NCBI GenBank assembly: GCA_030680795.1
Contig: JAUXUL010000010.1
Coordinates: forward strand, 1-64,000
Direction of reading: 5' to 3'
Origin: Anaerolineales bacterium
Lineage (GTDB): Bacteria > Chloroflexota > Anaerolineae > Anaerolineales > Villigracilaceae
Length of the DNA: 64,000 bases
In this document: positions 3,347 through 43,888 of the stretch, piece by piece
Position numbering within the stretch: position 1 is the first letter of the stretch
Layout: each line of letters opens with the position of its first letter
The notes under the pieces: model-generated
What the model was told of the DNA's origin: nothing
Databases searched by the model: none
The model's input: only the letters and a program-made list of their open reading frames with translations
Position numbers and translations under genes: made by a program

Positions 3347-4141
3347 TCAGGCAGGGACAGGCGTGGACGCGGCAAGCAGGCATTCAACGTTGTGAGTCGC
3401 AAGCGATTCTACAGATGAAGAATCGAGGCGTTCGTCAGATACGAGTTTGTCTATCTCATCAATATTTGCAATTTGGAAATTGGAGACCACGCCCCATTTG
3501 CTATGGTCTGCAGCAACGATGACCTGTCCTTTGGTGCGTTCGATCATTTTACGAACGACTTCGGCTTCGGGATTGGTTGGAACCGTGCAACCGTGTTTAA
3601 GACTGATCCCGTCCACGCCGAGGATCGTTTTGTTGGCATAGATCAGGCTCAAATTGTCCAGCGCGAAGCGGCCCGCCAGGGAGTTGGAACGTGACTGGAA
3701 TTCGCCCCCTGTCATATAGTAGTGAAAGCCCGGGTCACCGAGATCCATCACTGCACTGACATTGTTTGTAAAAACTGTGATGCGAGAATCACGGCGAATG
3801 TGTTGAAGGACTTGCGTTGAGGTGGTACCGCTGTTGATAAAAACAATATCACCCTCTTCGATCAGCGAGGCGGCAAGTTCGCCGATACGCCGCTTCTCTT
3901 CAGGGAGATGCTGAGCTCTTTGCTGGTATTCCTGTTCGAGGATCATGCGTTGATTTAGGATCGCGCCCCCATGTGTGCGTTCAAGAAATCCCTTTACCTC
4001 AAGCCATTCCAGGTCGCGCCGCACAGTCGCCTCGGAAGTTTCCAACAAGCCACATAAATCAACTGTTCGGGCGATTTGGTGGATTGCAAGAAAATCCTGA
4101 ATTCGTTCCCGCCGTTGGGCTGGAATGAGGGGTTTACTCAT
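3347..4141 (-). CDS. DeoR-family transcriptional regulator
   Basis: A 264-residue protein. Residues 5-60 form the DeoR winged helix-turn-helix (RRERIQDFLAIH, then SEATVRRDLEWLE and FLERTHGGAIL). Residues 75-235 are the DeoR sensor fold related to sugar-phosphate isomerases, with an INSGTTSTQ phosphate-binding loop and a conserved late GVD / VAADHSKWG segment. DeoR proteins usually repress catabolic genes and are induced by a phosphorylated intermediate. It faces away from the plus-strand genes starting at 4294 and lies upstream of the minus-strand phosphoesterase and permease, so it is well placed to control both arms. The Shine-Dalgarno is weak. The effector is unknown, but kinases on both sides would supply a phosphorylated inducer (inference). 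Confidence 0.92.
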   Translation of the reverse strand: MSKPLIPAQRRERIQDFLAIHQIARTVDLCGLLETSEATVRRDLEWLEVKGFLERTHGGAILNQRMILEQEYQQRAQHLPEEKRRIGELAASLIEEGDIVFINSGTTSTQVLQHIRRDSRITVFTNNVSAVMDLGDPGFHYYMTGGEFQSRSNSLAGRFALDNLSLIYANKTILGVDGISLKHGCTVPTNPEAEVVRKMIERTKGQVIVAADHSKWGVVSNFQIANIDEIDKLVSDERLDSSSVESLATHNVECLLAASTPVPA

Positions 4142-4213
4142 TAAATGGTCTTAGTTTGAAGATGAAGGAAGTTGCTCATTTTGATACCACATTATATAAG
4201 AATCTGATGAAAT

Positions 4214-29185: not shown

Positions 29186-29830
29186 TTATTTCTTCAGCAT
29201 GGATGCGTAACTCGAAATCAGATGAAACCACCAAGGCGACCATTTCAACCTAACCTTTGCCTGGCGAATAACCTTTCGCAACCCCTGCGGACCTTCAAAT
29301 TGGTCCAGCGACATAAGCGACCTCCCGACCTCAAAAGCGGCGTGTGCATCCGAGCCGACAGTGCCGGCCAGGTTGTGTTTCTCCGCAAACTCCCGTGCCC
29401 GGCGGTTAAAACGCGGCAACATGCAACGCGAGTTATACACTTCGATTGCATCCACTTGTGGAAGGATTTCAAGCAGATCATTTTCCTTCCAACCGCCCGC
29501 GCGGATATTATCAAATGGGTGGGATACACTGATAAACGCACCTTGCTCCTTCAAGAGTAAGATCGTCTTTTCAGGCGTAAGGTACGGTGGAATCTGCTCC
29601 TTTACAAACGCCGCGAGAATCTCTCCCCGGGTAGTCATAATCTCCTCGCCGACAATGACCAGCCCCGGGTCCAGAAGCTGAGCCGCCCGCGCGCCCTCAA
29701 TGGAGTTATGGTCAGTGATCACGACTCGGTCAATCCCTTTCCGACGACAAGCAGCAATCAATTTCGCCGGAGGCGTAAGGGAGTCTTTCGAGGCATTCGT
29801 ATGGCAGTGGAATTCTAGAAAAATCTGCAT
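29186..29830 (-). CDS. PHP-domain metal-dependent phosphoesterase
   Basis: A 214-residue protein. PHP motifs in order: FHCHTNASKDS (His8, His10), VVITDHNSIEGA, IVGEEIMTTRGE, ISVSHPFD and VGSDAHAAFEVG, giving the full set of trinuclear metal ligands. Relatives hydrolyse phosphoesters such as histidinol phosphate or nucleotides, and the substrate here is unknown. No signal peptide is present, so it is cytosolic. The start ATG at 29830 lacks a strong Shine-Dalgarno. It marks the left boundary of the accessory region. Confidence 0.85.
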   Translation of the reverse strand: MQIFLEFHCHTNASKDSLTPPAKLIAACRRKGIDRVVITDHNSIEGARAAQLLDPGLVIVGEEIMTTRGEILAAFVKEQIPPYLTPEKTILLLKEQGAFISVSHPFDNIRAGGWKENDLLEILPQVDAIEVYNSRCMLPRFNRRAREFAEKHNLAGTVGSDAHAAFEVGRSLMSLDQFEGPQGLRKVIRQAKVRLKWSPWWFHLISSYASMLKK

Positions 29831-30247
29831 TTACCTGTTGAAATCGGTTAATTTCATGTGAATAAAATGGTGGATAAGACTCTTTAGAGTTTAAAATGGA
29901 TCAACTTCAGGTGGTATAATTTGTTAAAGTTGGTCTTGATCAGCTCGACCTGGCAGAGTGTATCACAGGCGTAAAGTGAAATCTCATTCACTTTTTCGAC
30001 CTTCTTCAAATAACAGGAAAAAGTTTCCAGGGCATGTTCTTTTCTCCAAAGCGGTGGCAGTTATTGGGAATATCCCTTTTCTATTGGGATTTAGGTGGTA
30101 TTTTTCATACTCGGTACCAAAAATCCCGGCGGCCGCCCAAAAACAAATATGGAATAATTTTTGTAATATTTTCAGGTATAATAACTTCAACAATTAGCAT
30201 AACTCAAACAAGATAAACACCATGATAACTGTAAATAAGGGAAGCAA
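29831..30247. other. 417-bp AT-rich non-coding gap before the accessory region
   Basis: No convincing gene is present. Two TATAAT boxes are seen on the plus strand (29915-29920, in ggtggtataattt, and 30177-30182, in caggtataataac), both preceded by a cttcag-like word. Either could drive the plus-strand genes from 30248. No clear -35 hexamer accompanies them. Confidence 0.4.
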
Positions 30248-30760
30248 ATGGAGAAATCTACTGAGGAAAAATTAAGGACACCTAGTTCTTTTTCTCTGTT
30301 TCATACGAAAGAATTAGAACTTCCGGATTCCAATCGGGATATTTTACTGGAGCCTGTATATCCGGAATCTTACAATTTAAGTTATACCTGCTTGTTGATT
30401 CCTCGATTTCCGTCCCATCAGCTAAGAGGAGACTTGGCAGATTATTTACACCAATGGCTGCCACAAATCTGCATCTCCTACAGTTGGAGTTTGGAATTTA
30501 TTATTGTGTATCCAGACTATTTCCAATGGGCAATTTGCGTTCCCCCATCTACGCCCCGAGGTCTTTTTATGCAACAAATACGTGACGATACATCGGAAAT
30601 GATCTTTTCCACCTTTGGGCATATCAGAATGGAAAATTTATCCAACGATTTTTGGGCATTGGGTAATTTGGTAGTATTAGGAACGAGACCTCACCCAGAA
30701 GATATGATCAGTCAATACATTCGCCTAAAACGCCTTCAACAAGGTCTGAACACTTTATAA
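30248..30760 (+). CDS. IS200/TnpA-like fold protein with lost HUH motif
   Basis: A 170-residue protein with no exact match I recognise. From residue 42 it follows the outline of a Y1 (IS200/IS605-type) transposase: YTCLLIPRFPSHQLRG, a strand ending EFIIVYPDYFQWAICVPPST where Y1 enzymes have PDHxHLLxxxPP, then MQQIRDDTSEMIFSTF, NDFWALGNLVVLGT and DMISQYIRLKRLQQ. The two metal-binding histidines are replaced by Tyr and Gln, but the FW and terminal YI...Q-like helix with a tyrosine at the catalytic position remain. It would be inactive as a transposase and may be a domesticated DNA or RNA binder. It starts the accessory run, 21 bases before an Mrr-like gene. The fold is inferred by eye. Confidence 0.5.
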   Translation: MEKSTEEKLRTPSSFSLFHTKELELPDSNRDILLEPVYPESYNLSYTCLLIPRFPSHQLRGDLADYLHQWLPQICISYSWSLEFIIVYPDYFQWAICVPPSTPRGLFMQQIRDDTSEMIFSTFGHIRMENLSNDFWALGNLVVLGTRPHPEDMISQYIRLKRLQQGLNTL

Positions 30761-30781
30761 TTATCAGGATATGTCAACAAA

Positions 30782-31702
30782 ATGCAGCACGACATGCAAT
30801 ACTCTATTCAGGATCCCATATATGTTCTAGACAACCACAAAAAGAGTGGGCGAAATACTTTAACAATAGAAAGAGCGAGCGAACTGCTGCGATATGTATT
30901 TGAGATTCTTTGGGATAAACCCGATGGTTTAACTGCCAATGAGGTTATATCTCTCGTCCCTAGGGTGATGCATCTAACGGAATATGAATTAGAGTATTCC
31001 CCAAAATTTAACTCTCCAAGATATGAGAAAATCGTTCGAATCACCACAATTCCTCTTGCCTATACAGGTTGGTTACTAAAAAATGATAAAGGACGTTGGT
31101 ATATCACCGAAGCGGGGTATCAAGCTTGCAAACAATTCGTCAATGTTCATGAATTTTATCAAGAAGCTATTCGCTTGTATAACGAACACAAACAGCTTGC
31201 ACCTGAAAGTATCATGGCATTGGAAACTGCTCAAGAATCGGCCTGGGGACAAATAGAAAAACATCTTCTCCAATTGAAAAAAAGTGAATTACAAATCATG
31301 GCTGGAGAACTCCTGCGCGCAATGGGGTACTTCCCATCCTGGATGGCTCCTCCGGAGAAACAGCGTGGTCATGTCAATCTGATCGCATATACTGATCCTA
31401 TTGGAGCAAAAGGCCAAAGGATCCTGACTCAAATAATACAGAAAGGCCAATCTGTCACTCTTGAAGGGATCAAGAGTTTTCTAGCAATACTTGGAGCGAA
31501 TGACTTTGGTATGATTATCTCAATGAGCGGTTTTACCAATCAAGCAATTCAGGTATTAAGCACGGATAATTTTGAGAAAGTCAGCGTGCTGGATGCAGAA
31601 TCTTTTTTTGACCTTTGGAAAAAATATTATGCTGATATAAGTCAAGAGGTCCGCAATTTATTACCTTTAAAAGTCGTTCATTTTTTGTCGCAATTTGACT
31701 AG
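30782..31702 (+). CDS. Mrr-like protein with degenerate nuclease site
   Basis: A 306-residue protein. Residues 15-115 resemble the Mrr N-terminal winged helix (IPLAYTGWLLKNDKGRWYITEAGYQACKQF). Residues 175-300 follow the Mrr restriction-endonuclease outline: LQIMAGELLRAMGY, then GHVNLIAYTDP where active enzymes have DGGID, then ILTQIIQKGQ where active enzymes have QxK, then ANDFGMIISMSGFTNQAIQVL and a VSVLDAESFFDLWKKYY ending. The metal-binding aspartate is Asn and the expected QxK lysine is Ile, so cleavage is doubtful. It may bind modified DNA without cutting. It lies between two small genes in the same direction and is probably cotranscribed. Confidence 0.65.
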   Translation: MQHDMQYSIQDPIYVLDNHKKSGRNTLTIERASELLRYVFEILWDKPDGLTANEVISLVPRVMHLTEYELEYSPKFNSPRYEKIVRITTIPLAYTGWLLKNDKGRWYITEAGYQACKQFVNVHEFYQEAIRLYNEHKQLAPESIMALETAQESAWGQIEKHLLQLKKSELQIMAGELLRAMGYFPSWMAPPEKQRGHVNLIAYTDPIGAKGQRILTQIIQKGQSVTLEGIKSFLAILGANDFGMIISMSGFTNQAIQVLSTDNFEKVSVLDAESFFDLWKKYYADISQEVRNLLPLKVVHFLSQFD

Positions 31703-31714
31703 AGTCATAAGATC

Positions 31715-32212
31715 ATGAGCAAAGACTTGACTGGCAATGCTAAAAGTTTGTACAGCAAATCATTCAAAAATGGAATCGAAAATTTAAGGGATGAAATCCA
31801 ACTCGCATTTCAATGGAATAGACCCAGCATTTTATTTGCAATTCATAATTCAATAGTGGGGCAAATAAATTCTCAAAAAGCTTTGGAACAGGGGATCCTA
31901 AATTTCAATAAAAAAGTTAAGCGTATTGAAGCAGACGACAGAAGTATTAATTTAATCAGAACAATAATTAAAATACCAGATCGTGAGAACATCGTGTTTT
32001 TTATCTCAGGGTTTGAAAACACAAACAGTAATTCGAAGAATGATGTTTACAAGCTATTAAATATGCACCGTGAGTTTTTTGTTGAGAATCTCATACGTGC
32101 TGTCTTTTGGTTTACCAAAGAAGAAGCCGCAAAATTGCCTCATTTGGCACCGGATTTTTGGGCTTTTCGACATAGAGCAGTGGAATTCGCACCGACGCGT
32201 GGTTCGAAATGA
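31715..32212 (+). CDS. Stand-alone APDFW domain protein
   Basis: A 165-residue protein homologous to the first 155 residues of the TPR protein at 37938: FQWNRPSILFAIHNS aligns with IQWDRPSALLAVYDS, NIVFFISGFEN with HIFFVSGVTP, and LIRAVFWFTKEEAAKLPHLAPDFWAFRHRAVEF with the corresponding NIRAVFWITPK...APDFWDFRQRVIEF. The APDFW-x-[WF]-R segment is, to my knowledge, common next to TPR and NTPase domains in signalling ATPases of Chloroflexi and cyanobacteria. Alone it has no visible catalytic motif. After the tga stop the same frame stays open for about 70 codons, so the gene may be truncated. It starts 12 bases after the Mrr-like gene. Confidence 0.6.
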   Translation: MSKDLTGNAKSLYSKSFKNGIENLRDEIQLAFQWNRPSILFAIHNSIVGQINSQKALEQGILNFNKKVKRIEADDRSINLIRTIIKIPDRENIVFFISGFENTNSNSKNDVYKLLNMHREFFVENLIRAVFWFTKEEAAKLPHLAPDFWAFRHRAVEFAPTRGSK

Positions 32213-32344
32213 ACTCACTTATCCATTGGTATCCTTCTTTGGAAAGATGAAATCCCATGGATCGAGATTGAATTTCAAGGAAAAACACTTAATCCTTACC
32301 AAGCATGGGGTCTTTACGCAAAAGAAAATTTAACTTTTGAAAAT

Positions 32345-32350
32345 TATAAT
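32345..32350 (+). promoter_or_regulatory. -10 box for the histidine kinase gene
   Basis: TATAAT ends seven bases before the ATG at 32358, which gives leaderless transcription. This supports ATG 32358 over the in-frame TTG at 32337. Confidence 0.5.
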
Positions 32351-32357
32351 ATTGATA

Positions 32358-34490
32358 ATGCAACTTCAATCCCTGATTTTATTTCTTATCCTAATTACGT
32401 TTGCCGTTGGTGCAATATTGGTTTTATTAAAAAAAACTCCTGGGTCGGTTAGTCTTTGTGTTCTTGTAATTATTATTGCCGCTTGGCTCAGCGCTTATCT
32501 TTTTTACAGATTCTTAGCCACCCCTATTTCTTTACAGGTGTGGAGAGCAGTTCATTATTTTTCCCTGGCCTCCGCAGCGACTTCAGTGTATTACTTTTCG
32601 ATCTCATATACCAATCGTGCGTATTGGATAAATAAATCTACAATTACATTATTCCTTCTGGAACCTATTATTATTCAAATCCTTTTTTGGACAGAGCCTT
32701 TAAGGAGAATTTTTTTTGCTCCAGGATTTTGGCTTGGGGAACAAATAAACCTAATTTATGTTTTGATGATTCTTACTGGAAGCCTTGTACTGCTTGCAGA
32801 TACATTACTGAACAAACCTCGAATACACTTCCTTCATGCCGGCACAATGGTTCTTGGCACTTTATTTCCATTGTTTGGCAACATTTCTACAATTTTCATC
32901 CGCAATTTTGAGACCAATTTATTAATATTGATTTTCTCCTACTGCCTCGCAATCGTCGGCTTTTTGTATATTAAATTCAGTAGCTCATTAATTGAAACCA
33001 CACCGCTTACCCGTGAGATTGTCGTTGAAGATATGGATGATGGCTGGATGGTCATAGACGATCACGATAATATAATCGACCTAAATTCCTCAGCAGAAAA
33101 AATGGTCGGTCTATCGCGTGAAACCATCTATGGACAGCCAGTAACTCAGATCCTGACTGAATGGCCCAAAATATCAAAATCATCTGAGGGCATTCAAGAA
33201 ATGGAAATGCGCCGCAGCGTTAAATCACAAAGTGGCTGGCATTACTTGAACATTCGAATATCTCAATTAAGAGACAAGAAAAACGGGAAATTCGGCCATT
33301 TGATTGTCTGGCGTGATATTACCGGGAGAAAACTTGCAGATGATGCCCGCCAGAGGGCCCGGGATGAATTGTTCGTACTCTTAAATGCCATATCCAGTAC
33401 TGCCAACCGCTCGATAAATATGGAGGATTTTTTATCTGAAGCAAGCTATCAGATCTTATATTCTTTCCAAAGCCAGTCAGTTGCTGTTTTTTTAACTGAG
33501 GAAGAGGATGCCGGGAAACAAAAGCTTTCTCTCAAAACTCATTTTGGGTTAGAGCCAGAGTACCTAAAGGAATTAAACAGTAATACAGCCACTTCAAACC
33601 TTTATAATTGGTTGACGCATAACGATGAAAATCGCCCTTTGACAGTTGACAACTTTAATGATTCGTCTGACTATCCCCTTAGTTTAAAAAACATCGGAGC
33701 TGTTTTCGCTGTCCTGATACCCTTAATCACTTACAACCAGCATGAAAACAGCATTCTTGGTTGCCTGTACCTCAGTAGGAATGAAAACATACCTTTCAGT
33801 CAGGATGAAATAATTCGTCTCACAACAAGCGCGAATCAGATCGCAACCTTGATCGATAGCAATCGTCGGAGACAATTGGCAATCGCCCTTTCCGAAAGAC
33901 AGCGTTTGCTGCGCGACCTGCACGATTCGGTTAGTCAAAAATTATACGGGTTGGTTGCGCTGACCGAAGCAGCCCAAGCCGGAATCGAGGCCGGGTCCGA
34001 AATTGCCCCACTGCAAGTCTTAACCCGCATCGGGGAAAATGCCCGTCAAGCTGTCAAAGAAATGCGCCTATTTCTCTACGAAATGCAGCCGGTAGATCTA
34101 AAAGACGGTCTTGTCTCATCCCTGCACTTCCGCCTTGCGGCTGTTGAAGGAAGAGCGGACATAAGGGCCAGGTTGCTTTCAGATGAAAATATTCTACTTT
34201 CAAAAGAAAATGAAATTGCTCTTTATTACATTGCACAGGAGGCGCTAAATAATATATTAAGGCATGCCCGCGCAAAAAATGTAGTTGTCAACATAAAACA
34301 AACCCGTCAACATGTTATACTTGAAATTAAAGATGACGGGCAAGGATTTGATATAAAAAAGATAGACGATACCGGCTTGGGATTACGCAACATGAAAGAG
34401 CGAGTTCTGCTAATAAAAGGTAAAATTAAGATCTCATCCACTGTTGGTGCGGGAACAAAAATCACCGTAACTGTGAGTAAAAATAGCTAA
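32358..34490 (+). CDS. Membrane sensor histidine kinase (7TM-PAS-GAF, HisKA_3)
   Basis: A 710-residue kinase. Seven or so transmembrane helices occupy the first 220 residues, as in His_kin_7TM sensors. A PAS domain follows (about 235-330, DDGWMVIDDHDNIIDLNSS...HLIVWRDITGRK), then a GAF domain (about 345-505), then the NarX/DegS-type dimerisation helix with the phospho-acceptor histidine in RDLHDSVSQ, an N box ALYYIAQEALNNILRHARA, and G boxes DDGQGFD and GLGLRNMKERV. It should phosphorylate one or both adjacent NarL-type regulators in response to a membrane or cytosolic signal. The stop is four bases before the first regulator. Start is discussed with the -10 box. Confidence 0.92.
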   Translation: MQLQSLILFLILITFAVGAILVLLKKTPGSVSLCVLVIIIAAWLSAYLFYRFLATPISLQVWRAVHYFSLASAATSVYYFSISYTNRAYWINKSTITLFLLEPIIIQILFWTEPLRRIFFAPGFWLGEQINLIYVLMILTGSLVLLADTLLNKPRIHFLHAGTMVLGTLFPLFGNISTIFIRNFETNLLILIFSYCLAIVGFLYIKFSSSLIETTPLTREIVVEDMDDGWMVIDDHDNIIDLNSSAEKMVGLSRETIYGQPVTQILTEWPKISKSSEGIQEMEMRRSVKSQSGWHYLNIRISQLRDKKNGKFGHLIVWRDITGRKLADDARQRARDELFVLLNAISSTANRSINMEDFLSEASYQILYSFQSQSVAVFLTEEEDAGKQKLSLKTHFGLEPEYLKELNSNTATSNLYNWLTHNDENRPLTVDNFNDSSDYPLSLKNIGAVFAVLIPLITYNQHENSILGCLYLSRNENIPFSQDEIIRLTTSANQIATLIDSNRRRQLAIALSERQRLLRDLHDSVSQKLYGLVALTEAAQAGIEAGSEIAPLQVLTRIGENARQAVKEMRLFLYEMQPVDLKDGLVSSLHFRLAAVEGRADIRARLLSDENILLSKENEIALYYIAQEALNNILRHARAKNVVVNIKQTRQHVILEIKDDGQGFDIKKIDDTGLGLRNMKERVLLIKGKIKISSTVGAGTKITVTVSKNS

Positions 34491-34494
34491 AACC

Positions 34495-35145
34495 ATGAAA
34501 GCAATTCGCATTCTTGTAGCTGAGGATGAAAGTGTCGTGCGCGATGGTGTAGTAGCCATTCTATCCTTTCAATCTGACATGAAAGTTGTCGCTGAAGCAG
34601 AGGATGGCGTTAAGGCTGTAGAACTCGCGCGCCAACACAAACCCGATGTAGTGCTGCTCGATATGCAGATGCCCAGGCTGAACGGCTTAGAGTCCATTCC
34701 AAAATTAAAAGAAGCATCGCCAAAATCCCATATTTTGGTGCTTACTAGTTTCGCAGAAAGCGACCGCGTTTATCAAAGTATAAAAGCGGGCGCGCTGGGT
34801 TTTCTACTTAAAGATGCAACCAGAACACAGTTATTACAAGCCATTCGGGATGTAGCCAATGGGCAAGCATCCATTCAGCCTGCGATTGCAATGAAGGTAA
34901 TCAACGAAATTGATCATCCCGCTGAAATAATGTACACCGCAGACCCATTAACTCCTCGAGAGCTAGAAACTTTAAAGTTGATCGCGCGTGGTATGAGCAA
35001 TCAGGAAATCGCGCTTGACATGGTCGTGCATGAAAGAACGGTGGCTAAATATGTAAGCGGAATATTGGATAAGCTGCACCTTGCAAACCGTACACAAGCT
35101 GCCTTATATGCGATTCGCGAGGGTCTGACCGAGCCGAAAAAATAA
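34495..35145 (+). CDS. NarL/LuxR-type response regulator 1
   Basis: A 216-residue regulator. The receiver domain (4-125) has the acidic pair EDE, phospho-acceptor Asp near residue 57 in VVLLDMQMPRLNG, the TS switch residues in LVLTSFAES and lysine in GFLLKDA. The LuxR helix-turn-helix (about 150-212) reads LTPRELETLKLIARG then NQEIALDMVVHERTVAKYVSG. It is coupled to the histidine kinase by a 4-base gap and is the presumed cognate partner. About 60 percent similar by eye to the second regulator at 35869. A clean terminator follows. Confidence 0.95.
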   Translation: MKAIRILVAEDESVVRDGVVAILSFQSDMKVVAEAEDGVKAVELARQHKPDVVLLDMQMPRLNGLESIPKLKEASPKSHILVLTSFAESDRVYQSIKAGALGFLLKDATRTQLLQAIRDVANGQASIQPAIAMKVINEIDHPAEIMYTADPLTPRELETLKLIARGMSNQEIALDMVVHERTVAKYVSGILDKLHLANRTQAALYAIREGLTEPKK

Positions 35146-35166: not shown

Positions 35167-35196
35167 CACCCGCGCCTTTTCAGCGCGGGTGTTTTT
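35167..35196 (+). terminator. Terminator after response regulator 1
   Basis: cacccgcgc (35167-35175) pairs with gcgcgggtg (35183-35191), then five T. It ends the kinase-regulator unit. The following 200 bases to 35395 show no gene. Confidence 0.88.
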
Positions 35197-35395: not shown

Positions 35396-35833
35396 TTGTT
35401 CCTTGGACATTACTCAATACAGTTGAAAAGTTCAAACCGCCTCCATCTCCCGACAGAATGGAGAAAACTGATCTCAGGTGGCATCTACCTCACACGAGGA
35501 TTTGACCAAAATCTGCTAATTCTCAAAGCAGATGCATTTAAAGAGGTCTACACACGAATTTCCTCACTAAATATTGCAGACCCCCTTGCAAGATTACTTT
35601 TACGAATGTTCTTGGGAACCGCAAGCTACGAAGAAATTGATGAAAACGAGTCTATTCCCGTATCACCCATCCTGATGAACTACGCAGATCTTAAAGACCA
35701 GATAGTGATCATTGGGCAGGGTGAATATCTGGAAGTTTGGTCACCCATCCTTTGGGATCAGCAGAAAATTCAAATTCAAGATGCCCAGGCGAACGGGCAA
35801 CGATTCTCATCTTTCATAATATCCGCAAGTTGA
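35396..35833 (+). CDS. MraZ-like transcription factor
   Basis: A 145-residue protein starting with TTG, supported by a taggag Shine-Dalgarno seven bases upstream and by the MFLGHYSIQLKSSNRLHLPTEWR start, which matches the first MraZ/AbrB-like half (FxGxYxxxLDxKGRlxlPxxfR). The second half (IPVSPILMNYADLKDQIVIIGQGEYLEVWS) matches the repeat LxxYAxLxxxVvxiGxxxxxEiW. The DxxGR signatures are degenerate in both halves. MraZ normally heads the cell-wall/division cluster and forms ring-shaped DNA-binding oligomers. Here no mraW or fts gene follows. Instead the gene sits between two NarL regulators, suggesting a specialised paralogue. It probably controls local genes (inference). Confidence 0.75.
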   Translation: MFLGHYSIQLKSSNRLHLPTEWRKLISGGIYLTRGFDQNLLILKADAFKEVYTRISSLNIADPLARLLLRMFLGTASYEEIDENESIPVSPILMNYADLKDQIVIIGQGEYLEVWSPILWDQQKIQIQDAQANGQRFSSFIISAS

Positions 35834-35868
35834 TAAAAACAATCATACTATCAAGAATAGGTGCCCAC

Positions 35869-36534
35869 ATGAAAAAAATTCGCATACTTGTTGTAGATGA
35901 TCAAAATGTAGTCCGTGAAGGAATGGTAGCCATTCTCTCCCTGCAAAAAGATATGGAGGTTGTTGGGGAAGCGGTTAATGGGATTGAAGCCGTACAGCTT
36001 GCCTTGAGGACAAAACCAGATGTAATTCTTTTGGATATGGTCATGCCCCTACAGGATGGTCTCGCTACCATTCCAAAGCTAACTGAAATCTCACCAAATT
36101 TCCGCATCCTTGTACTTTCCAGTTTTGCAGAAAGTAATCGCGTTTACCAGGCTATCAAAACCGGCGCCATAGGATACATGCTAAAAGACACCCCGCGCGC
36201 ACAACTATTAAATGCCATTCGAGAAGTCGCCAAAGGTCAAGCATCTATACACCCATCCATCGCAATACAGGTAATTAAAGATTTCGACCTCCCGGTGACA
36301 AATCACAGCATTTCCTTCAATCAGCATCTCACCCGCCGCGAGATGGAAACCCTGCGTTTGATCGCACGCGGCTTGAGCAATCAGGAAATTGCATGCACCC
36401 TTGTCGTGAATGAAAGGACCATTGCCAAATATGTCAGCGGTGTTCTCAATAAGCTCCATCTAGCCAACCGCACTCAGGCTGCTCTGTACGCCATTCGAGA
36501 AGGATTAACTACAGTAATGACCCAGGCGAATTAA
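35869..36534 (+). CDS. NarL/LuxR-type response regulator 2
   Basis: A 221-residue regulator from ATG 35869. An in-frame upstream extension to 35737 would overlap the MraZ-like gene and adds no domain. The receiver (4-125) has VVDDQ, Asp in VILLDMVMPLQDG, LVLSSFAES and GYMLKDT. The LuxR domain (about 152-215) has LTRREMETLRLIARG and NQEIACTLVVNERTIAKYVSG. It is a clear duplicate of the regulator at 34495, and the two likely share the same kinase or have diverged in DNA targets. The gap to the MraZ-like stop is 35 bases. Confidence 0.93.
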   Translation: MKKIRILVVDDQNVVREGMVAILSLQKDMEVVGEAVNGIEAVQLALRTKPDVILLDMVMPLQDGLATIPKLTEISPNFRILVLSSFAESNRVYQAIKTGAIGYMLKDTPRAQLLNAIREVAKGQASIHPSIAIQVIKDFDLPVTNHSISFNQHLTRREMETLRLIARGLSNQEIACTLVVNERTIAKYVSGVLNKLHLANRTQAALYAIREGLTTVMTQAN

Positions 36535-36684: not shown

Positions 36685-37941
36685 ATGAAAAATTTTGAAT
36701 ATCTTAAGGCAAGAGATTTTGACAGGGCATGGTTAAATTTTGAGTTGGATCTGCCCCTTAAACCCGGACCAAATGGGAGGGCTAACCCCTTTTATATCAA
36801 CCGCCCTGGAAATCCGATCAATGAGTTGATTGATGCTCTGCTGGCTCCCTTTTACCGACCTCCAAAATTCTTTTTCTCGGGTCATCGTGGATGTGGAAAA
36901 TCTACAGAGTTACTGCACCTGCTCAGTAACAACGAAATACAAAAAAAATATTGGCCGATCAATTTCAGCATCCGTGAAGAGACAGACATTATTGATCTGG
37001 ATTTTCGCGATGTCCTGCTCTCAATTGGCAGCCGCCTATTTCGTGAATACCGCAGGAAAGGCGGGGATCTACCCGAACAATTACTCAAAGAATTGGACGG
37101 TTGGAAAGGAAAAGTGGAAAAACAAATCTCCACCATCCTGGATGGTCGTGTATCAGAATACGAACTCGGCGCCTCCATAGATGCTTTCTTTGTCAATGCG
37201 GGTCTCAAAATGAAATTGGAACCTGCCACCCGCGTGGAGTTGAGACAGATCGTTCAAACAGACATCACCGGATTGATAGCCATCATCAACAAAATTGCTG
37301 CTGCGATATACAACCAGGAACGACGAATCCCTTTGATCCTGATTGACGATATGGATAAACCAGATCTGGATCGTGCCCGTGCTATTTTTCATGACCACCG
37401 CGAGATCATGATACAACCAAATTGCGCCATCGTTTACACCGTTTCAAGCGCACTCTTTTACAGCAAGGAATTTGATGCAATCCGTGACCAGGCGCTTTTT
37501 CTCCCTAACATCAACTTGAGATCTTCTACTAATTCAGATCAGCATTTGGTTGAAGGTTATCGCATTTTGGAAAAATTTATCAATGTAAGAATGGATCCCT
37601 CTCTGATCCACCCATTGGCACTCGAACAGGCGATTACATACAGTGGTGGCGTCTTCCGTGAATTGGCTCGCATTATACGCACATCCATTGGAAGAGCAAG
37701 ACGGCGAAAAGCTACCCAACTTGAAATAGAGGATGTGGAATGGGCCGCTATCGAAATCCGAAACGAATACAGGCGTATTTTGGACACGGAGGATTTGAAG
37801 CTGCTGAAAAAAGTGCATGAAAGCAAAAAGCTCGAATTCAGCGACCGACTAAGGACACTCTTGCAAGTGCTTGCCCTGCTTGAATACCGCGATCAGGAAA
37901 ACTGGTGCGATGTGCACCCAATTTTAAGGAAGATCCTATGA
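36685..37941 (+). CDS. AAA/STAND-like P-loop ATPase
   Basis: A 418-residue protein. Walker A is GHRGCGKST (66-74) and Walker B is IPLILIDDMDK (215-225), followed by a sensor-1-like region (CAIVYTVSSALF). The helical and winged region ends with LLQVLALLEYRDQENWCDVHPILRKIL, as in ORC/STAND-type ATPases that act as signalling switches. The start of the mature region (RPPKFFFSGHRGCGKST) is typical of AAA ATPases paired with separate sensor or effector proteins. No transmembrane segment is present. Its stop overlaps the start of the next gene in an ATGA, so the two products are translationally coupled and probably work together. Target and effector are unknown. Confidence 0.8.
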   Translation: MKNFEYLKARDFDRAWLNFELDLPLKPGPNGRANPFYINRPGNPINELIDALLAPFYRPPKFFFSGHRGCGKSTELLHLLSNNEIQKKYWPINFSIREETDIIDLDFRDVLLSIGSRLFREYRRKGGDLPEQLLKELDGWKGKVEKQISTILDGRVSEYELGASIDAFFVNAGLKMKLEPATRVELRQIVQTDITGLIAIINKIAAAIYNQERRIPLILIDDMDKPDLDRARAIFHDHREIMIQPNCAIVYTVSSALFYSKEFDAIRDQALFLPNINLRSSTNSDQHLVEGYRILEKFINVRMDPSLIHPLALEQAITYSGGVFRELARIIRTSIGRARRRKATQLEIEDVEWAAIEIRNEYRRILDTEDLKLLKKVHESKKLEFSDRLRTLLQVLALLEYRDQENWCDVHPILRKIL

Positions 37942-40655
37942 CCAACCCGGGCATCATTCGGCATTCACAAACAAATACATTTGATGAGCGCATAGAGATC
38001 GCTATTGAGGAACTTGAACTCGCCATTCAATGGGATCGTCCATCTGCTCTTCTGGCTGTTTATGATTCAGAATATATTCGCAAGGATGCTGAAACCGCCC
38101 TCGAGAACCATTTAACCGAACAAAGGCAAAATATCGTTCATCTTAAAATGGACGAGTTGCCGGGTCTCAATCTGATAACCTTCCTGCTTGATTGTCCCTC
38201 AGCAACCAATCATATCTTCTTTGTTAGCGGCGTGACTCCCGATAATAGGGATGTTTTCTCCGAACTTGGACACCACAAAGACATACTAATAAATAAAAAC
38301 ATCCGGGCAGTATTCTGGATAACCCCAAAAACTCTATCAGAGTTGGCAATCAATGCACCGGATTTCTGGGATTTTCGCCAGCGTGTTATTGAATTTTCGG
38401 ACATGCCCAATCCTGATCAAATCCTCCAAACTGTTCTTGAGTCTGCATGGCAAGATATGGGCGAATATACCGACGATTTCGATGATACCGAGGAAAAAAT
38501 AAACCTGCGCGAGGCTATTCTGACTGAATTGCCCGAAAACGCGGAATCAACCTCAACGCGAGCCAATCTAATGCTCACGCTGGGAATTCTAAACTGGCGT
38601 AAAGGTAATTTTGAAAAGGCAAATGAATTTTTACAGAATGCAATCAAAGCCGCCATTCGGCTCGAGGATAACTGGTTCGAAGCAGAATGTCTCAACGCGA
38701 TTGCCCTCGTAAAATTTAGCCAGGGTAAAAATGATGAAGCCATCGATTCATACAAACAAGCTATCGCCATCGCCCCGGAACAAATTTTTATCTGGAACAA
38801 CCTCGGTAACCTGTGTATGAAGATCATGCGGAATGATGAAGCCATGCTTGCATTCAAAAAAGCATTACAGCACAATCCAAAGGATCCCATCGCTTGGAAC
38901 GGACTCGGCACGGTCTATTACAGAAACGGTTCCATTGACGATTCCATCAATGCCTACCGTAAAGCAATAGAATACGCGCCCTCCTATGCCAGCCCATGGA
39001 CAGGTTTGGGGGATGCCTACGCAAGTATCGGGCGTGAAATAGATGCCATCATCGGTTATCAAAATGCGATCGAGTTAAACAAAGACCTGGCCACACCCTG
39101 GCTGCACATCGCAAAGATTTATAACAAACAGGGACGCAATAAAGACGCAATCAAAACCTATCAACGCGCCTTGCTGGTCGAACCAGAAAATCATCAGACC
39201 TGGAATGAGCTTGGTTTGGTTTTCATGCAGGTCAATTCTTTTGAAGAAGCCAGGCAGGCTTTCTCAAAAGCCTGTGAATTGGACCGAAGTTATGGATGGG
39301 CCTATAGCAACCTTGCTCTCGCATACGCAAACCAGGGTAATTATCAAGAAGCCATAGAAGCGTGTCATCGAAGCCTGGAAGTTTTCACAGATGACAACGA
39401 CAAGGCCATCGCACTCGAGCGCCTGGCAAATTTCTACCGGGCCATCAACGATTATAACAATGCCATGCAAACATTCCAAATGGCAGACAAACTCAATGGC
39501 TCTGTCATGGCAACCCAACAGACAGCCGCTTCAGACTCCCCCAGGCTTGATCCTATTCAAATATCAGAATCAGCCCAGGAAGTTCGCCTCCCCACAGAGC
39601 CCGAGGAAGCCTCGCAAACCGAAGAAGGAATATCTATTGAAGAAATTAAACAAGAAAAACATGAAATGCCTGCATGGTTATTCCAATCCGAGACTTGGAA
39701 TCAAAACACCAACACATCAGTCACCTATTCAGATGATCTTTTCTGGAAGGAAGAACCAAAATCAATGACAAGGAAACAAATGGAGGAGTTGACTATGAAA
39801 ACACGATCAGCACGACAGCCCATGCACGAGTCTGTTTCTGGGCCCGGTCTTTCAGAAAATCAATTCTCAATTGATCTATTTGGGAACGAAGATGAGATCA
39901 CGGAGACTAAAAACCCTGAAGTCTGGAATGAAAAAGGAAACATCCATTTTCAGAATGGGGTCTATGACCAAGCCATAGCTGCCTACAACAAAGCCATCGA
40001 GCTTGACCGTTCCTTTGGTTGGCCTTACAGCAATCTAGCCCTCACCTATCTTACATTAGGCAAACTCGCAGAGGCTATTTTGCTCTATCAAAAGAGCGCC
40101 GCATTGCTGCACGATAGGGAAGAACAAGCTGCTTCCTGGAATAGTTTAGGCAATATCTATCGCCACCTGAACGATTACGAGAATGCCTTGAAAGCATATC
40201 AAAAAGCAGATGAACTCGACCCGCAAAACGCAGGTAAACGAGAAAAAGCGGATCTGGCCATCTCCGGTCCTAACTCTCAAAACGCCCAAGTGTGGCTTGA
40301 ATTGGGCAACCTCTTCTTCAAATCCGCATCCTACAACGAAGCCATGAACGCATTCGCCAATGCTGTAAAAATCGATCCCTCTTCAGGTTGGGCACATAGC
40401 AACCTGGCCATGTCCCTTGTTTATCAAGGCAAATACAAGGAAGCGATCCCTGTCTATTTGAAGAGCATTGAGCTGTTCACCAACGACAAGGACAAGGGCA
40501 CATCCTGGAATCGACTGGGCCATGTCTATCGAAAGTTGAATGACCAAACCAATGCCAGGAAAGCCTATCAAACTGCCGTAATCTTATCCAAAGAAAAAAC
40601 CAATTTACTCACACGCACCCGTTTCACCTTGTTGGAAAATTGTCATGCGAATTAA
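37938..40655 (+). CDS. APDFW-domain / TPR protein, 905 aa
   Basis: The ATG at 37938 overlaps the ATPase stop and is preferred over an upstream in-frame codon at 37905. Residues 1-155 are the APDFW domain (NIRAVFWITP, INAPDFWDFRQRVIEF). Residues 165-415 hold about seven TPRs. A recurring three-TPR module of about 100 residues, running from WNELGN through YSNLALAY to ADELDP, occurs at about 420-520, 661-762 and 784-885. A low-complexity linker (525-655) contains MPAWLFQSE. No catalytic motif or membrane segment is visible. It is best read as a scaffold or sensor partner of the upstream ATPase. Two further genes repeat the same module. Confidence 0.78.
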   Translation: MTNPGIIRHSQTNTFDERIEIAIEELELAIQWDRPSALLAVYDSEYIRKDAETALENHLTEQRQNIVHLKMDELPGLNLITFLLDCPSATNHIFFVSGVTPDNRDVFSELGHHKDILINKNIRAVFWITPKTLSELAINAPDFWDFRQRVIEFSDMPNPDQILQTVLESAWQDMGEYTDDFDDTEEKINLREAILTELPENAESTSTRANLMLTLGILNWRKGNFEKANEFLQNAIKAAIRLEDNWFEAECLNAIALVKFSQGKNDEAIDSYKQAIAIAPEQIFIWNNLGNLCMKIMRNDEAMLAFKKALQHNPKDPIAWNGLGTVYYRNGSIDDSINAYRKAIEYAPSYASPWTGLGDAYASIGREIDAIIGYQNAIELNKDLATPWLHIAKIYNKQGRNKDAIKTYQRALLVEPENHQTWNELGLVFMQVNSFEEARQAFSKACELDRSYGWAYSNLALAYANQGNYQEAIEACHRSLEVFTDDNDKAIALERLANFYRAINDYNNAMQTFQMADKLNGSVMATQQTAASDSPRLDPIQISESAQEVRLPTEPEEASQTEEGISIEEIKQEKHEMPAWLFQSETWNQNTNTSVTYSDDLFWKEEPKSMTRKQMEELTMKTRSARQPMHESVSGPGLSENQFSIDLFGNEDEITETKNPEVWNEKGNIHFQNGVYDQAIAAYNKAIELDRSFGWPYSNLALTYLTLGKLAEAILLYQKSAALLHDREEQAASWNSLGNIYRHLNDYENALKAYQKADELDPQNAGKREKADLAISGPNSQNAQVWLELGNLFFKSASYNEAMNAFANAVKIDPSSGWAHSNLAMSLVYQGKYKEAIPVYLKSIELFTNDKDKGTSWNRLGHVYRKLNDQTNARKAYQTAVILSKEKTNLLTRTRFTLLENCHAN

Positions 40656-40684
40656 CCAACATCTGATTAATTTTGGAGGTAAAA

Positions 40685-42346
40685 ATGTCTGAATATGAAT
40701 TATGGAATGACCTTGACAATATCTTTAACGCGGTCTTAAATTACCAGAAAAAGAATATTGAATTCAATGATCGTTTCATCAACCCTTGGGTACGGCTGGG
40801 AAATATCTATGGGCGTCAGAATCAGAACAAGGAAGCCGTACAAGCCTATCAACAGGCTACTGAAATAGACCCCGACACTGCTCAGAACTGGAAAGACCTA
40901 GGCGACTCTCAATTCAAGAACGGAGACTATCTTGACGCAAACAGTTCGTACAAAAAAGCAATCAGTTTGGATCCAAAAGCCGGCTGGCCACTAAGCAACC
41001 TGGCCCTCACTCTGGTCACTCAGGGCAAATATGAGGAAGCCATTCCACTTTATACCGCAAGTATTGAGTTGCTCTCTGAAGACAAGGACAAAGCGATTAT
41101 ATGGAATCGCCTTGGTAATGCATATCGTAAACTCAATAAATATGAGGATGCATATATAGCATTCCAAAAGGCGGATGAACTGGATGGCAAGAACACAGGT
41201 TTCAGTGATAAGTTGGATGAATACCCAGCCGGTGGCACTGTCATTGCTCCCGAAGAGATTCTTGAACAACTGGTCGTAGAGCAGCCTTTGGAAGGCAAGG
41301 AAACAACACCTGCTGAGGTTGATAAGGGGGCAGTGAATAATAAAGCTCGAGATGTTGATGGAGGCAATACTGAGGCGGCCTCGATGCAAAACCAGGTGAA
41401 AAAGAAAGAAAATTCCATCAAAGATAAGGCTTCACGCATTCCGTCCTGGTTGATCTTCAATGAAAGCGAGCAGTTAGAAAAAGAAGTTGCCAGCACTGGA
41501 AAGGCCATCACGATCAGCGAAGACGAAGGGGCCGATGGCAGCCAACTCAAGCAAGAAGTTATATTTAGCGAGCCAGCCATGACGAGGAATATTGTGGAAA
41601 CAGACACGGTACCCGTCCCTGCCCAGATGAACGCCGAAATGGTTGTGAATGAGAAAATTGTTGAAAAAATTGCTGATGCGCTAAAGGTTCAGAATGAGGC
41701 GTATATGGATATGGATCAGGAAGAATTCGCTCATGAGGAGTCAGTTCTCTGGACAGAATCCAAATCACCGAAAGAAGAATCCATCATTGACCCTAAAGAT
41801 GAGTCTAACGAACTTGCTTACGAAGAATACTTAAAGGATGTTGTTGAGCCTTCAACTATTTTGCCTGCTCATATAAATGAGATCCATAGTGAATCATCGC
41901 AAACCAAATTAAGCGCCAACGGCGAAGTCCGTATTGCAATGGATACAACAAACGCGCATGTGTGGAATGAAATGGGCAATGTCTATTTTAATTCCGGCTC
42001 ATATGATGATGCAATCGCATCCTTTAGCAAGGCAATCGAACTTGATCGGTATTTCGCCTGGGCTTATAGCAACCTTGCTTTGGCATATGTGCAAATAGAC
42101 CGTATCACGGAAGCGATTTTATTGTATCAGCGCAGTATAGAGTTGTTCATTTCAGAAAAAGACAAAGCTGTGACGTGGAACCGTCTAGGCAACGTGTATC
42201 GCCGATTGAACGATTATAGCAGCGCCATAGCGGCCTATCAAACTGCAGATGAACTTGACCCAGCAAACACCGCACTTTCCCTTCGTTCAAGTTTCGGTTT
42301 GCTGGGAAATATGTCCGCCGAACCAAAACCTGCCATCATTGCATAA
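40685..42346 (+). CDS. TPR-module protein, 553 aa
   Basis: Start at ATG 40685, seven bases after ggaggt. A TTG at 40673 lies within that Shine-Dalgarno region and is rejected. One TPR (34-66) precedes a full three-TPR module at 67-168 (NWKDLGDSQFKNGDYLDA to FQKADELDG). An acidic, probably disordered linker (170-420) includes RIPSWLIFNESE, which echoes MPAWLFQSE in the preceding protein. A second module fills 426-526 (VWNEMGNVYFNSGSYDDA to TADELDP). It is cytosolic with no enzyme motif. It lies 29 bases after the 905-aa gene and is probably in the same operon. Confidence 0.75.
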   Translation: MSEYELWNDLDNIFNAVLNYQKKNIEFNDRFINPWVRLGNIYGRQNQNKEAVQAYQQATEIDPDTAQNWKDLGDSQFKNGDYLDANSSYKKAISLDPKAGWPLSNLALTLVTQGKYEEAIPLYTASIELLSEDKDKAIIWNRLGNAYRKLNKYEDAYIAFQKADELDGKNTGFSDKLDEYPAGGTVIAPEEILEQLVVEQPLEGKETTPAEVDKGAVNNKARDVDGGNTEAASMQNQVKKKENSIKDKASRIPSWLIFNESEQLEKEVASTGKAITISEDEGADGSQLKQEVIFSEPAMTRNIVETDTVPVPAQMNAEMVVNEKIVEKIADALKVQNEAYMDMDQEEFAHEESVLWTESKSPKEESIIDPKDESNELAYEEYLKDVVEPSTILPAHINEIHSESSQTKLSANGEVRIAMDTTNAHVWNEMGNVYFNSGSYDDAIASFSKAIELDRYFAWAYSNLALAYVQIDRITEAILLYQRSIELFISEKDKAVTWNRLGNVYRRLNDYSSAIAAYQTADELDPANTALSLRSSFGLLGNMSAEPKPAIIA

Positions 42347-42358
42347 GAGAAAGCAAAG

Positions 42359-43888
42359 ATGAATAACTGTGAATTTTGGAATGAGTTGGGCAATTTATAT
42401 TTTATGCAAGGTGCATATGAACCTGCGATCCATGCATATTTACGCTCCATCGAACTGGAGATCGGGTTTGGCAGGTCATATAGCAACCTGGCCATGACCT
42501 TTGTTCAAATTGGCAAATACAATGAAGCGATTAAGTTATACCGCCGCAGCATTACATTATTGCCAAATGAAAGAGAGAAAGCCATCACCTGGAATAGACT
42601 CGGCATTCTTTATCGTCAGGTAAAAGATTATGGCAGTGCACTCGAAGCATACCAGCAGGCTGATCTGCTGGATCCCCAGCAGGAAAACGATGGATTCTCC
42701 GAAACAGTTCGCGAGAGCAAAATGCCTCTCACCGTTTCCAAACCTAGTATTGATATTGAATCACTCATTTCAGATGATCATGAATCACACGAATCAGACG
42801 ATTCTGAAAATAGGGATTTCCTGGAGATCAATGCAGAGTTGGAAATTACAGAGGAGGAGTCCAACATATCCTGGTCTAGCAGCGAATTTTTACCAGCTGA
42901 TCCTGACGACCATATCCTGGTAAAAGCGGTGCGCGAATCTATAGCCGGCATTCACAGCAAATGGAAACCTGCCACTAAAGATGAGACAGCATTTGTTGAG
43001 ATACCCGATCTGGTTAATAAGGAAAAGGAACTGGAAACAGTTGCTCTGGAAGACTTACCCCTTATTATTCCCATCGATCTCGAGGATATTCCACAGGATG
43101 AACTGGATGATAGGAATATGGATAGTAAAATCCCCACTGAAGAGAGCGGAAGACGACCCATGAGGTTTGAGATGATAGAGAAAAATGAGCCGGCACAAAG
43201 TGGAACTCAAAACGGACATGACAGCATGATCGAATCCATTGGCGCCTCTATTTCAAGCGAAACTGAATCAGAGTCGACCATAGGTTCACAGGTGGCAAAT
43301 CCATCTATGGAACTGTCTGAAACAGAGATGGATGCCCTTGAGCTCGATATTGTTATGCATCAGCAGGCTGCAAAAAATAATCCCCGAAACTATGCGGTTT
43401 GGGAGATGCTGGGTGATGCTTACAAATCGGCAGGTCAATATAAAGAGGCTCTTTTAGCGTATCAAAAAGCAATCTCTGTAAACTCCAACAAACCATCATG
43501 TTTCTACCGCCTAGGATTGATCTATGCCATAGAAAGAAATGATGCGGAAGCGGTCACGGCTTTTCAAAAAGTCCTGGAACTGGTTCCAGACCACGCACAG
43601 GCACACGCTTCATTAGCCAGTCAATATCTAAGAATGGGAATGGAAAAACTTGCCCAATCCCATATTGAAAAGGCTTTGAACACAAATATGGAAGATGAAA
43701 ATGATTATAACCGTGCCTGTCTCGAAGCCATCTGCGGAAACAATGAACGGGCTCTTGAATTACTAGAAATTGCCCTTCAAACCAAACAAACTTATGTTAA
43801 TTGGGTTAATAAGGATCCCGATCTTGATTCCCTGCGCCACGATCATCGCTTTCAAGATCTTCTCTCCACCTTTGCAACAAGCGCATAA
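42359..43888 (+). CDS. TPR-module protein, 509 aa
   Basis: Residues 5-106 form one copy of the shared three-TPR module (FWNELGNLYFMQGAYEPA, YSNLAMTF, AITWNRLGILYRQ, ADLLDP). An acidic linker of about 230 residues follows, then three or four TPRs at about 350-460 (AVWEMLGDAYKSAGQYKEA, CFYRLGLIYAIERNDAEA). The tail ends WVNKDPDLDSLRHDHRFQDLL, commonly found at the end of TPR enzymes and adaptors. It starts 12 bases after the previous gene. Same role as its paralogues, presumably a multivalent adaptor. Confidence 0.75.
   Translation: MNNCEFWNELGNLYFMQGAYEPAIHAYLRSIELEIGFGRSYSNLAMTFVQIGKYNEAIKLYRRSITLLPNEREKAITWNRLGILYRQVKDYGSALEAYQQADLLDPQQENDGFSETVRESKMPLTVSKPSIDIESLISDDHESHESDDSENRDFLEINAELEITEEESNISWSSSEFLPADPDDHILVKAVRESIAGIHSKWKPATKDETAFVEIPDLVNKEKELETVALEDLPLIIPIDLEDIPQDELDDRNMDSKIPTEESGRRPMRFEMIEKNEPAQSGTQNGHDSMIESIGASISSETESESTIGSQVANPSMELSETEMDALELDIVMHQQAAKNNPRNYAVWEMLGDAYKSAGQYKEALLAYQKAISVNSNKPSCFYRLGLIYAIERNDAEAVTAFQKVLELVPDHAQAHASLASQYLRMGMEKLAQSHIEKALNTNMEDENDYNRACLEAICGNNERALELLEIALQTKQTYVNWVNKDPDLDSLRHDHRFQDLLSTFATSA

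Follow-up and report, generated by a model that had tools for sequence, protein, structure and literature searches.

The gene at positions 30248-30760 of the 64,000-nucleotide stretch of Anaerolineales DNA analysed here (the window) raises the question of what a transposase-like protein does once its active site has gone. The initial annotation had proposed a domesticated IS200-type transposase that kept its FW pair and terminal tyrosine helix, lost both metal-binding histidines, and was reused for binding nucleic acid at the head of an accessory region. We favour, with a probability of about 0.6, the reading that the protein keeps the TnpA fold without enzymatic activity and serves as a module in signal transduction.

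The plus-strand open reading frame starts with ATG, closely preceded by an AAGGGA stretch, and encodes a protein of 170 residues, hereafter Y1d, which consists of one domain and a short N-terminal tail, with neither a receiver (REC) nor a roadblock domain. Residues 41-159 match the Pfam family Y1_Tnp (35.6 bits against a cut-off of 23; 1.2e-8), and the score of 38 bits against the NCBIfam IS200 transposase is under the equivalog cut-off of 55. A phmmer search of the PDB gave 2fyx (E 4.7e-5) as the sole match below 0.001, and the matches up to an E-value of 10 comprise five TnpAs and one spurious weak row. Residues 88-94 read Y-P-D-Y-F-Q-W, which places Y91 and Q93 at the HUH positions, and F135-W136 and Y157 are present, exactly as first annotated. 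According to the accessible part of PMC6006769, the third metal ligand of Y1 transposases is a Gln four residues after the catalytic Tyr; the corresponding residue of Y1d is K161.

The AlphaFold2 model of Y1d, built from 57 sequences, has a pLDDT of 82.7, with residues 1-27 below 50. Structural similarity search using Foldseek revealed that it resembles the TnpAs of ISDra2 and S. tokodaii (E about 1e-9) and of IS608 (E 1e-8 to 1e-7), and comparison using VIA gave Z-scores of 13.8-15.6 against these three. The closest superpositions are with 2ec2_D (Z 15.6, rmsd 2.5, 108 aligned) and 2fyx_A (Z 15.4, rmsd 2.8, 125 aligned), compared to a weaker match with the REP-associated protein 4er8 (Z 7.9, rmsd 2.9, 107 aligned) and a Z-score of 7.3 for the best unrelated fold. 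Y1d is a true homologue of the IS200/IS605 TnpA, as its annotated Y1 ancestry implied, and is not a functional member of the TnpA family. It shares with the TnpAs of IS608 and ISDra2 (PF01797) the fold, the block order, the FW pair and the position of the tyrosine helix, but it lacks both HUH histidines and the third ligand, its tyrosine varies within the family, transposon ends are not seen, and the domain is fused to or encoded with signalling proteins. The solved structure 2fyx is a putative transposase of D. radiodurans (DR_0177), whose HUH motif aligns as Y-V-H; a Tyr in place of the first histidine is therefore not in itself unique to the family of Y1d.

Loss of the motif is common to the relatives, as the survey of orthologues showed. 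The best 80 of 204 relatives (16 standalone and 64 long forms) all have titles naming Chloroflexi/Chloroflexota or Anaerolineae/Anaerolineales, apart from one labelled Herpetosiphon sp.; the dead-TnpA relatives belong to Chloroflexota, mainly Anaerolineales, and mostly to uncultured bacteria. An HMM alignment of these 80 with 18 further standalone and 22 further long forms gave 120 rows besides the window, with at least six genomes counted twice, and the HUH motif and the Tyr occur together in none of them. The two histidine positions read YxQ in 97 of the 120 rows, and the other 23 show YxH, YxK, YxL, YxM, YxC, YxR, HxE, HxQ, FxQ, FxR, CxC, CxV and, once, HxH. The catalytic position is Tyr in 86 rows, Phe in 30, His in three and Ser in one, and Gln at Tyr+4 is found in only two. 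By sequence, the dead-TnpA family is catalytically dead. The only H-x-H row, L049 (4640-5215), has Phe at its tyrosine position.

Within the best-80 set, the pair is Y-x-Q in 78 rows, whereas it is scattered in the distant families; such near-fixation suggests that the pair has taken on a new structural role instead of drifting. Residues R53, W70, W80, W94, F135-W136 and R162 are invariant in the family, and could equally be markers of a retained nucleic-acid site. For comparison, 18 loci were taken from relatives and the window's own genome, 12 of which encode Y1 proteins outside the dead-TnpA family; HxH is kept in 10 of these 12. Among the proteins read, that of L192, from another part of the phylum, keeps HVH, and three other Y1 genes of the window's own genome likewise keep an HxH (HAH, HVH and HYH). 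The remaining loci are two members of the dead-TnpA family (L211 and L217), one polA (L218) and three without a frame (L197, L198 and L202). Two short Y1_Tnp proteins outside the family, L194 (HVR) and L207 (Y-V-H, aligned by eye), have partly lost the motif and are possibly further dead TnpAs.

Most relatives are not small proteins. The long form of about 550 residues consists of three parts: an N-terminal receiver, a middle MglB-like roadblock domain and a C-terminal dead TnpA domain. A match was found in 168 of 301 genomes sampled from the order, and among the genomes listed for the window's own family only G215 has none; among the matches listed, most sit in open frames of about 400-800 codons. 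Y1_Tnp is detected in all 34 aligned long forms and Response_reg in 25 (E<=1, best 6.1e-8), and D54 and K102 of the receiver-like domain are invariant in the 34. The pLDDT of the long-form model is about 90 in the receiver, about 70-90 in the roadblock and mostly 41-77 in the Y1 part, so the assignment of this last part rests on sequence. Compared by target, the model gave TM-scores of 0.76-0.79 against Spo0F receivers and 0.56-0.67 against M. xanthus MglB. A Pfam search of the long forms named no roadblock domain, and the middle domain is assigned to roadblock/LC7 by its predicted fold. The top rows of the roadblock fold search are Rag GTPase chains from Ragulator-type complexes (E 1e-8), long alignments with an rmsd of about 20, and the MglB rows follow from rank 15 on, most with an rmsd of about 3. 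By predicted fold, the long form combines both domains found in the MglB/roadblock-LC7 and REC partners of MglA GTPases. A linkage of roadblock and two-component parts in other bacteria is described in PMC4316618, the accessible portion of which mentions no dead TnpA domain. A search for a GTPase partner of the roadblock domain gave five Arf-family matches in the window genome and singled out no dedicated GTPase.

The long form usually lies beside polA. In the window's own genome it has 552 residues (L051:6625-8283), ends about 115 bp before polA, and shares 43% identity with Y1d (E 3.4e-43). In 52 of the 61 long-form loci compared, polA lies downstream on the same strand, 51 times at no more than 502 bp and once at 1331 bp; four of the other nine have less than 5 kb of contig left. 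The placement of a receiver-roadblock(-dead TnpA) gene directly before polA, seen at L051 8399-11230 and in the long-form loci of the best-80 set, is a conserved synteny, in which a TPR protein of about 770 residues often follows (45 loci).

Two trees were built, the first with seven canonical TnpAs and 29 standalone rows, and the second with ten rows left out (four canonical and six long-branch ones, including L168 and L175), retaining three canonical TnpAs. In both trees all dead domains form one group against the canonical TnpAs used (support 100/97). In the first, 27 of the 29 standalone rows, including that of the window, form one clade (100/99) inside the long forms, and the second again placed the standalone clade inside them. 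L168 and L175, standalone genes from another family, fall outside this clade and group with a 422-residue form. For the rows of the second tree, a topology that keeps all long forms together was still compatible with the data by the AU test (p 0.088). The standalone gene probably split off from the fusion; given the AU value and the position of L168 and L175, this descent is favoured, not proven.

The fusion itself seems to be old. Receiver-roadblock proteins without a TnpA part lie just upstream of polA in L187 (another order of the class) and L186 (the same order), suggesting that the fusion arose within the order. Against this stands L191, from another order of the class, which encodes a receiver, a roadblock and a Y1_Tnp domain (2.7e-9) with F-V-Y at the HUH positions, and has polA about 1.4 kb downstream; the fusion is either older or was lost in some lines. 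A receiver-roadblock protein is also found in L188, from another part of the phylum, with no polA within the 12 kb read. Domestication, as first annotated, is supported, but it is older than first supposed, and the loss of the HUH motif is not special to the standalone gene, being common to the REC-roadblock-TnpA fusion of the whole family. Neither finding that would have refuted the initial annotation was obtained: the predicted fold is that of TnpA, and no other row among the 120 has an intact HUH motif together with the Tyr.

Given its gene order across relatives, the "accessory region" headed by the gene is more aptly called a conserved gene cluster. The features of the window are as follows.

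30248..30760, plus strand: Y1d, standalone, catalytically dead TnpA (Y1_Tnp) domain protein, by Pfam, phmmer, fold and HMM alignment
30782..31702, plus strand: Mrr-like protein, Mrr_cat 33.5 bits over the cut-off, Mrr_N below the cut-off
31715..32212, plus strand: small protein G3, no Pfam family at E 0.1
32337..34490, plus strand: HisKA_7TM / PAS / HisKA_3 sensor histidine kinase by Pfam, with a relative in 12 of 16 standalone loci
34495..35145, plus strand: LuxR-type response regulator, by Pfam and cluster conservation
35167..35191, plus strand: intrinsic-terminator-like hairpin of 9 pairs, 8 of them GC, followed by a T run
35396..35833, plus strand: MraZ-family protein, Pfam MraZ 5e-18
35737..36534, plus strand: second LuxR-type response regulator, whose TTG start as listed overlaps the MraZ-family gene
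36685..37941, plus strand: P-loop AAA-like ATPase, AAA_14 below the cut-off, 79-92% identical in 10 relatives
37905..40655, plus strand: G3-domain and TPR protein, downstream end of the conserved cluster

The Mrr-like protein may truly start about 24 codons downstream, as in its relatives. Its PD-(D/E)xK residues are degenerate in the window, with D replaced by N and QxK by QII (K to I), and variably so in the relatives, the D and QxK being kept in six of 15 aligned proteins. The conserved G3 domain of about 160 residues (..APDFWAFRHRVVEF..), which has no Pfam family, occurs twice in the window (31715-32212 and 37905-40655); it is found alone, fused to TPR repeats in several relatives (proteins of about 440 residues), and, in relatives, again at the N-terminus of the TPR protein encoded downstream. 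The hairpin after the first regulator is a possible end of the operon, singled out by its strength and not by count, as six terminator-like sites were found compared to 6.8 expected in shuffles. The second regulator probably starts later than the listed TTG. MraZ is usually encoded in the cell-division cluster. Here the MraZ-family gene is instead part of a two-component cluster, and a gene family present in seven standalone loci of the best-80 set includes the MraZ-like gene of L056. Three consecutive TPR-repeat genes (37905-43888) occupy the cluster end and the region just beyond.

The neighbours of the other standalone copies, which are circumstantial evidence for a role, are also mostly signalling genes. 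Relatives of G3, the 7TM-type histidine kinase and the LuxR regulator follow the gene in 12 of the 16 standalone loci of the best-80 set, and the Mrr-like gene is present in 11. The same cluster of Mrr-like, G3, kinase and regulator genes is seen in L042, L043 and L046, and L045, whose contig ends within the kinase gene that follows G3, has no Mrr-like gene. Two tandem dead-TnpA genes (2551-2985 and 3733-4179) head one cluster copy in L043. A second setting is a chemotaxis or flagellar cluster, where the standalone genes of L044, L047, L048 and L049 lie beside MCP, CheW, MotB or FliM, and the 3.5 kb contig L050 has an MCP match. The copy in L067 adjoins a PAS kinase, that in L069 an OmpR-type regulator, that in L073 a cyclase-AAA-TPR protein and that in L058 transport-type genes; at these loci outside the main cluster the Pfam scan covered part of the neighbours.

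A signalling gene lies within 2.5 kb at 21 of 25 standalone loci compared to three of 64 long-form loci, a comparison biased by query proteins drawn from the window and the tested loci, and one in which the 21 are not independent but represent one conserved cluster, one chemotaxis setting and two singletons. Within 5 kb the counts are 23 of 25 and eight of 64, L058 and L073 having no signalling match in that range. As a background, 7.1% of positions in the window genome have a REC or HATPase gene within 2.5 kb and 12.3% within 5 kb, figures that cover these two domains only and not the chemotaxis copies, for the window genome gave no MCP match.

On this basis we propose a possible course of events. 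The ancestral setting would be a dead TnpA domain at the C-terminus of a receiver and MglB-like roadblock protein next to polA. The trees suggest that a copy of this domain later became a small gene of its own, which would have taken the first place in a histidine-kinase/response-regulator cluster, as in the window, and separately part of chemotaxis and flagellar clusters. Y1d would keep the TnpA fold, and perhaps its dimer, with the cutting gone, and may pair with other proteins of signalling, serving as a small adaptor or output domain. The switch would be supplied in the long form by the receiver/roadblock part, and in the cluster by the neighbouring kinase, regulator and G3/TPR proteins. 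A natural prediction is that standalone Y1d may pair with its counterpart domain in the long form. The free and the fused proteins could also differ in function. Extended to the whole order, this would make the REC-roadblock-dead TnpA protein by polA a core hub of Anaerolineales, with freed copies heterodimerising through the old TnpA interface and plugging into kinase clusters and chemotaxis arrays, a picture that we put forward tentatively and consider improbable in its full form.

The reading that survives best beside ours, a serious contender that we nonetheless hold to be unlikely, is close to the reuse originally annotated: the dead TnpA would bind hairpin ssDNA or RNA and regulate its operon or other genes without cutting. 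Y1d retains the TnpA fold, active TnpAs recognise folded ssDNA (as stated in the accessible parts of PMC6006769 and PMC8266576), and the adjacent gene encodes a Mrr-like protein that possibly binds DNA. However, the region around the window gene showed no conspicuous compact and conserved hairpin, which is a weak test on one sequence, and the REC/roadblock fusion and the chemotaxis contexts need no nucleic acid. The long-form domains are basic (median pI 9.10), a point in favour, whereas the window domain is acidic (pI 5.71). As a test of nucleic-acid binding, net charge or pI proved uninformative, the canonical TnpAs (median 7.01) being as neutral as the standalone dead domains (7.07). Judged by the fusion partners and neighbours, the balance points to a protein partner for Y1d as being at least as likely as nucleic acid.

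Quite improbable is an anti-phage or conflict system in which the dead TnpA, Mrr-like, G3/TPR and AAA-like proteins would act under the control of the kinase and regulator. The Mrr-like protein matches PADLOC PDC-S02 (7.1e-23), and weaker matches, as shared domains give, were obtained for the regulator and the TPR protein, but Y1d, the kinase and the AAA-like protein have none. Moreover, the degenerate Mrr site of the window and several relatives speaks against such a system, and the long form is near-universal in the family beside polA, unlike defence genes.

Still less credible is an active but unusual transposase or nickase that uses Y and Q in place of the two histidines. Some HUH proteins carry a HUQ motif, the window protein retains Tyr157, and 2fyx likewise has Tyr at the first HUH position. 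Against this, both histidines and the third ligand are absent, and the catalytic Tyr is replaced by F, H or S in 34 of the 120 rows. The window genome has one standalone copy and one fusion only. No convincing inverted repeats and no TnpA-type ends were seen at 29700-31000 (a weak test on one sequence), and the gene order is conserved across genomes. No convincing promoters were found around the gene, the total counts being equal to those of shuffles. A decaying relic without function, suggested by the lost catalytic residues, can be practically dismissed, as purifying selection acts on the gene (dN 0.136 and dS 0.518 against L056, the closest relative; NG86), in agreement with its annotation as a retained gene, its position and order are conserved, and the frame is open in nearly all relatives listed, with at least two matches having an internal stop.

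The preferred reading, a non-enzymatic module in signalling, has a parallel in TldR, an exapted nuclease-dead TnpB, in which a transposon protein lost its catalytic activity but not its fold and turned into a regulator. TldR is a different protein and is RNA-guided, whereas no guide is known for Y1d. Another host-kept TnpA relative is TnpAREP/RAYT, which is described as domesticated but active in the available text of PMC8266576; it processes REP hairpins, whereas Y1d lacks the HUH active site and matches 4er8 more weakly, as shown above. Domesticated TnpA has previously meant such an active enzyme, whereas here the fold survives without the catalytic residues in an apparent signalling role, either as a REC-roadblock fusion near-universal in the window's family and usually beside polA, or as free modules in sensor clusters. 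An annotation as "IS200-like transposase" in Chloroflexota can mark a conserved regulatory protein.

Among the papers listed from open PMC text, none describes the dead-TnpA family, and PMC8195603, as far as its text is available, has no bearing on it. A superfamily survey from 2018 was restricted to proteins having both the HuH and the Y motif and excluded unexpectedly long fusions (accessible text of PMC6006769), by which dead-TnpA proteins would be filtered out. In Chloroflexi bacterium 44-23, one Y1_Tnp gene lies beside a PDDEXK-like gene and a DEAD/DEAH gene, according to the available portion of PMC8756737.
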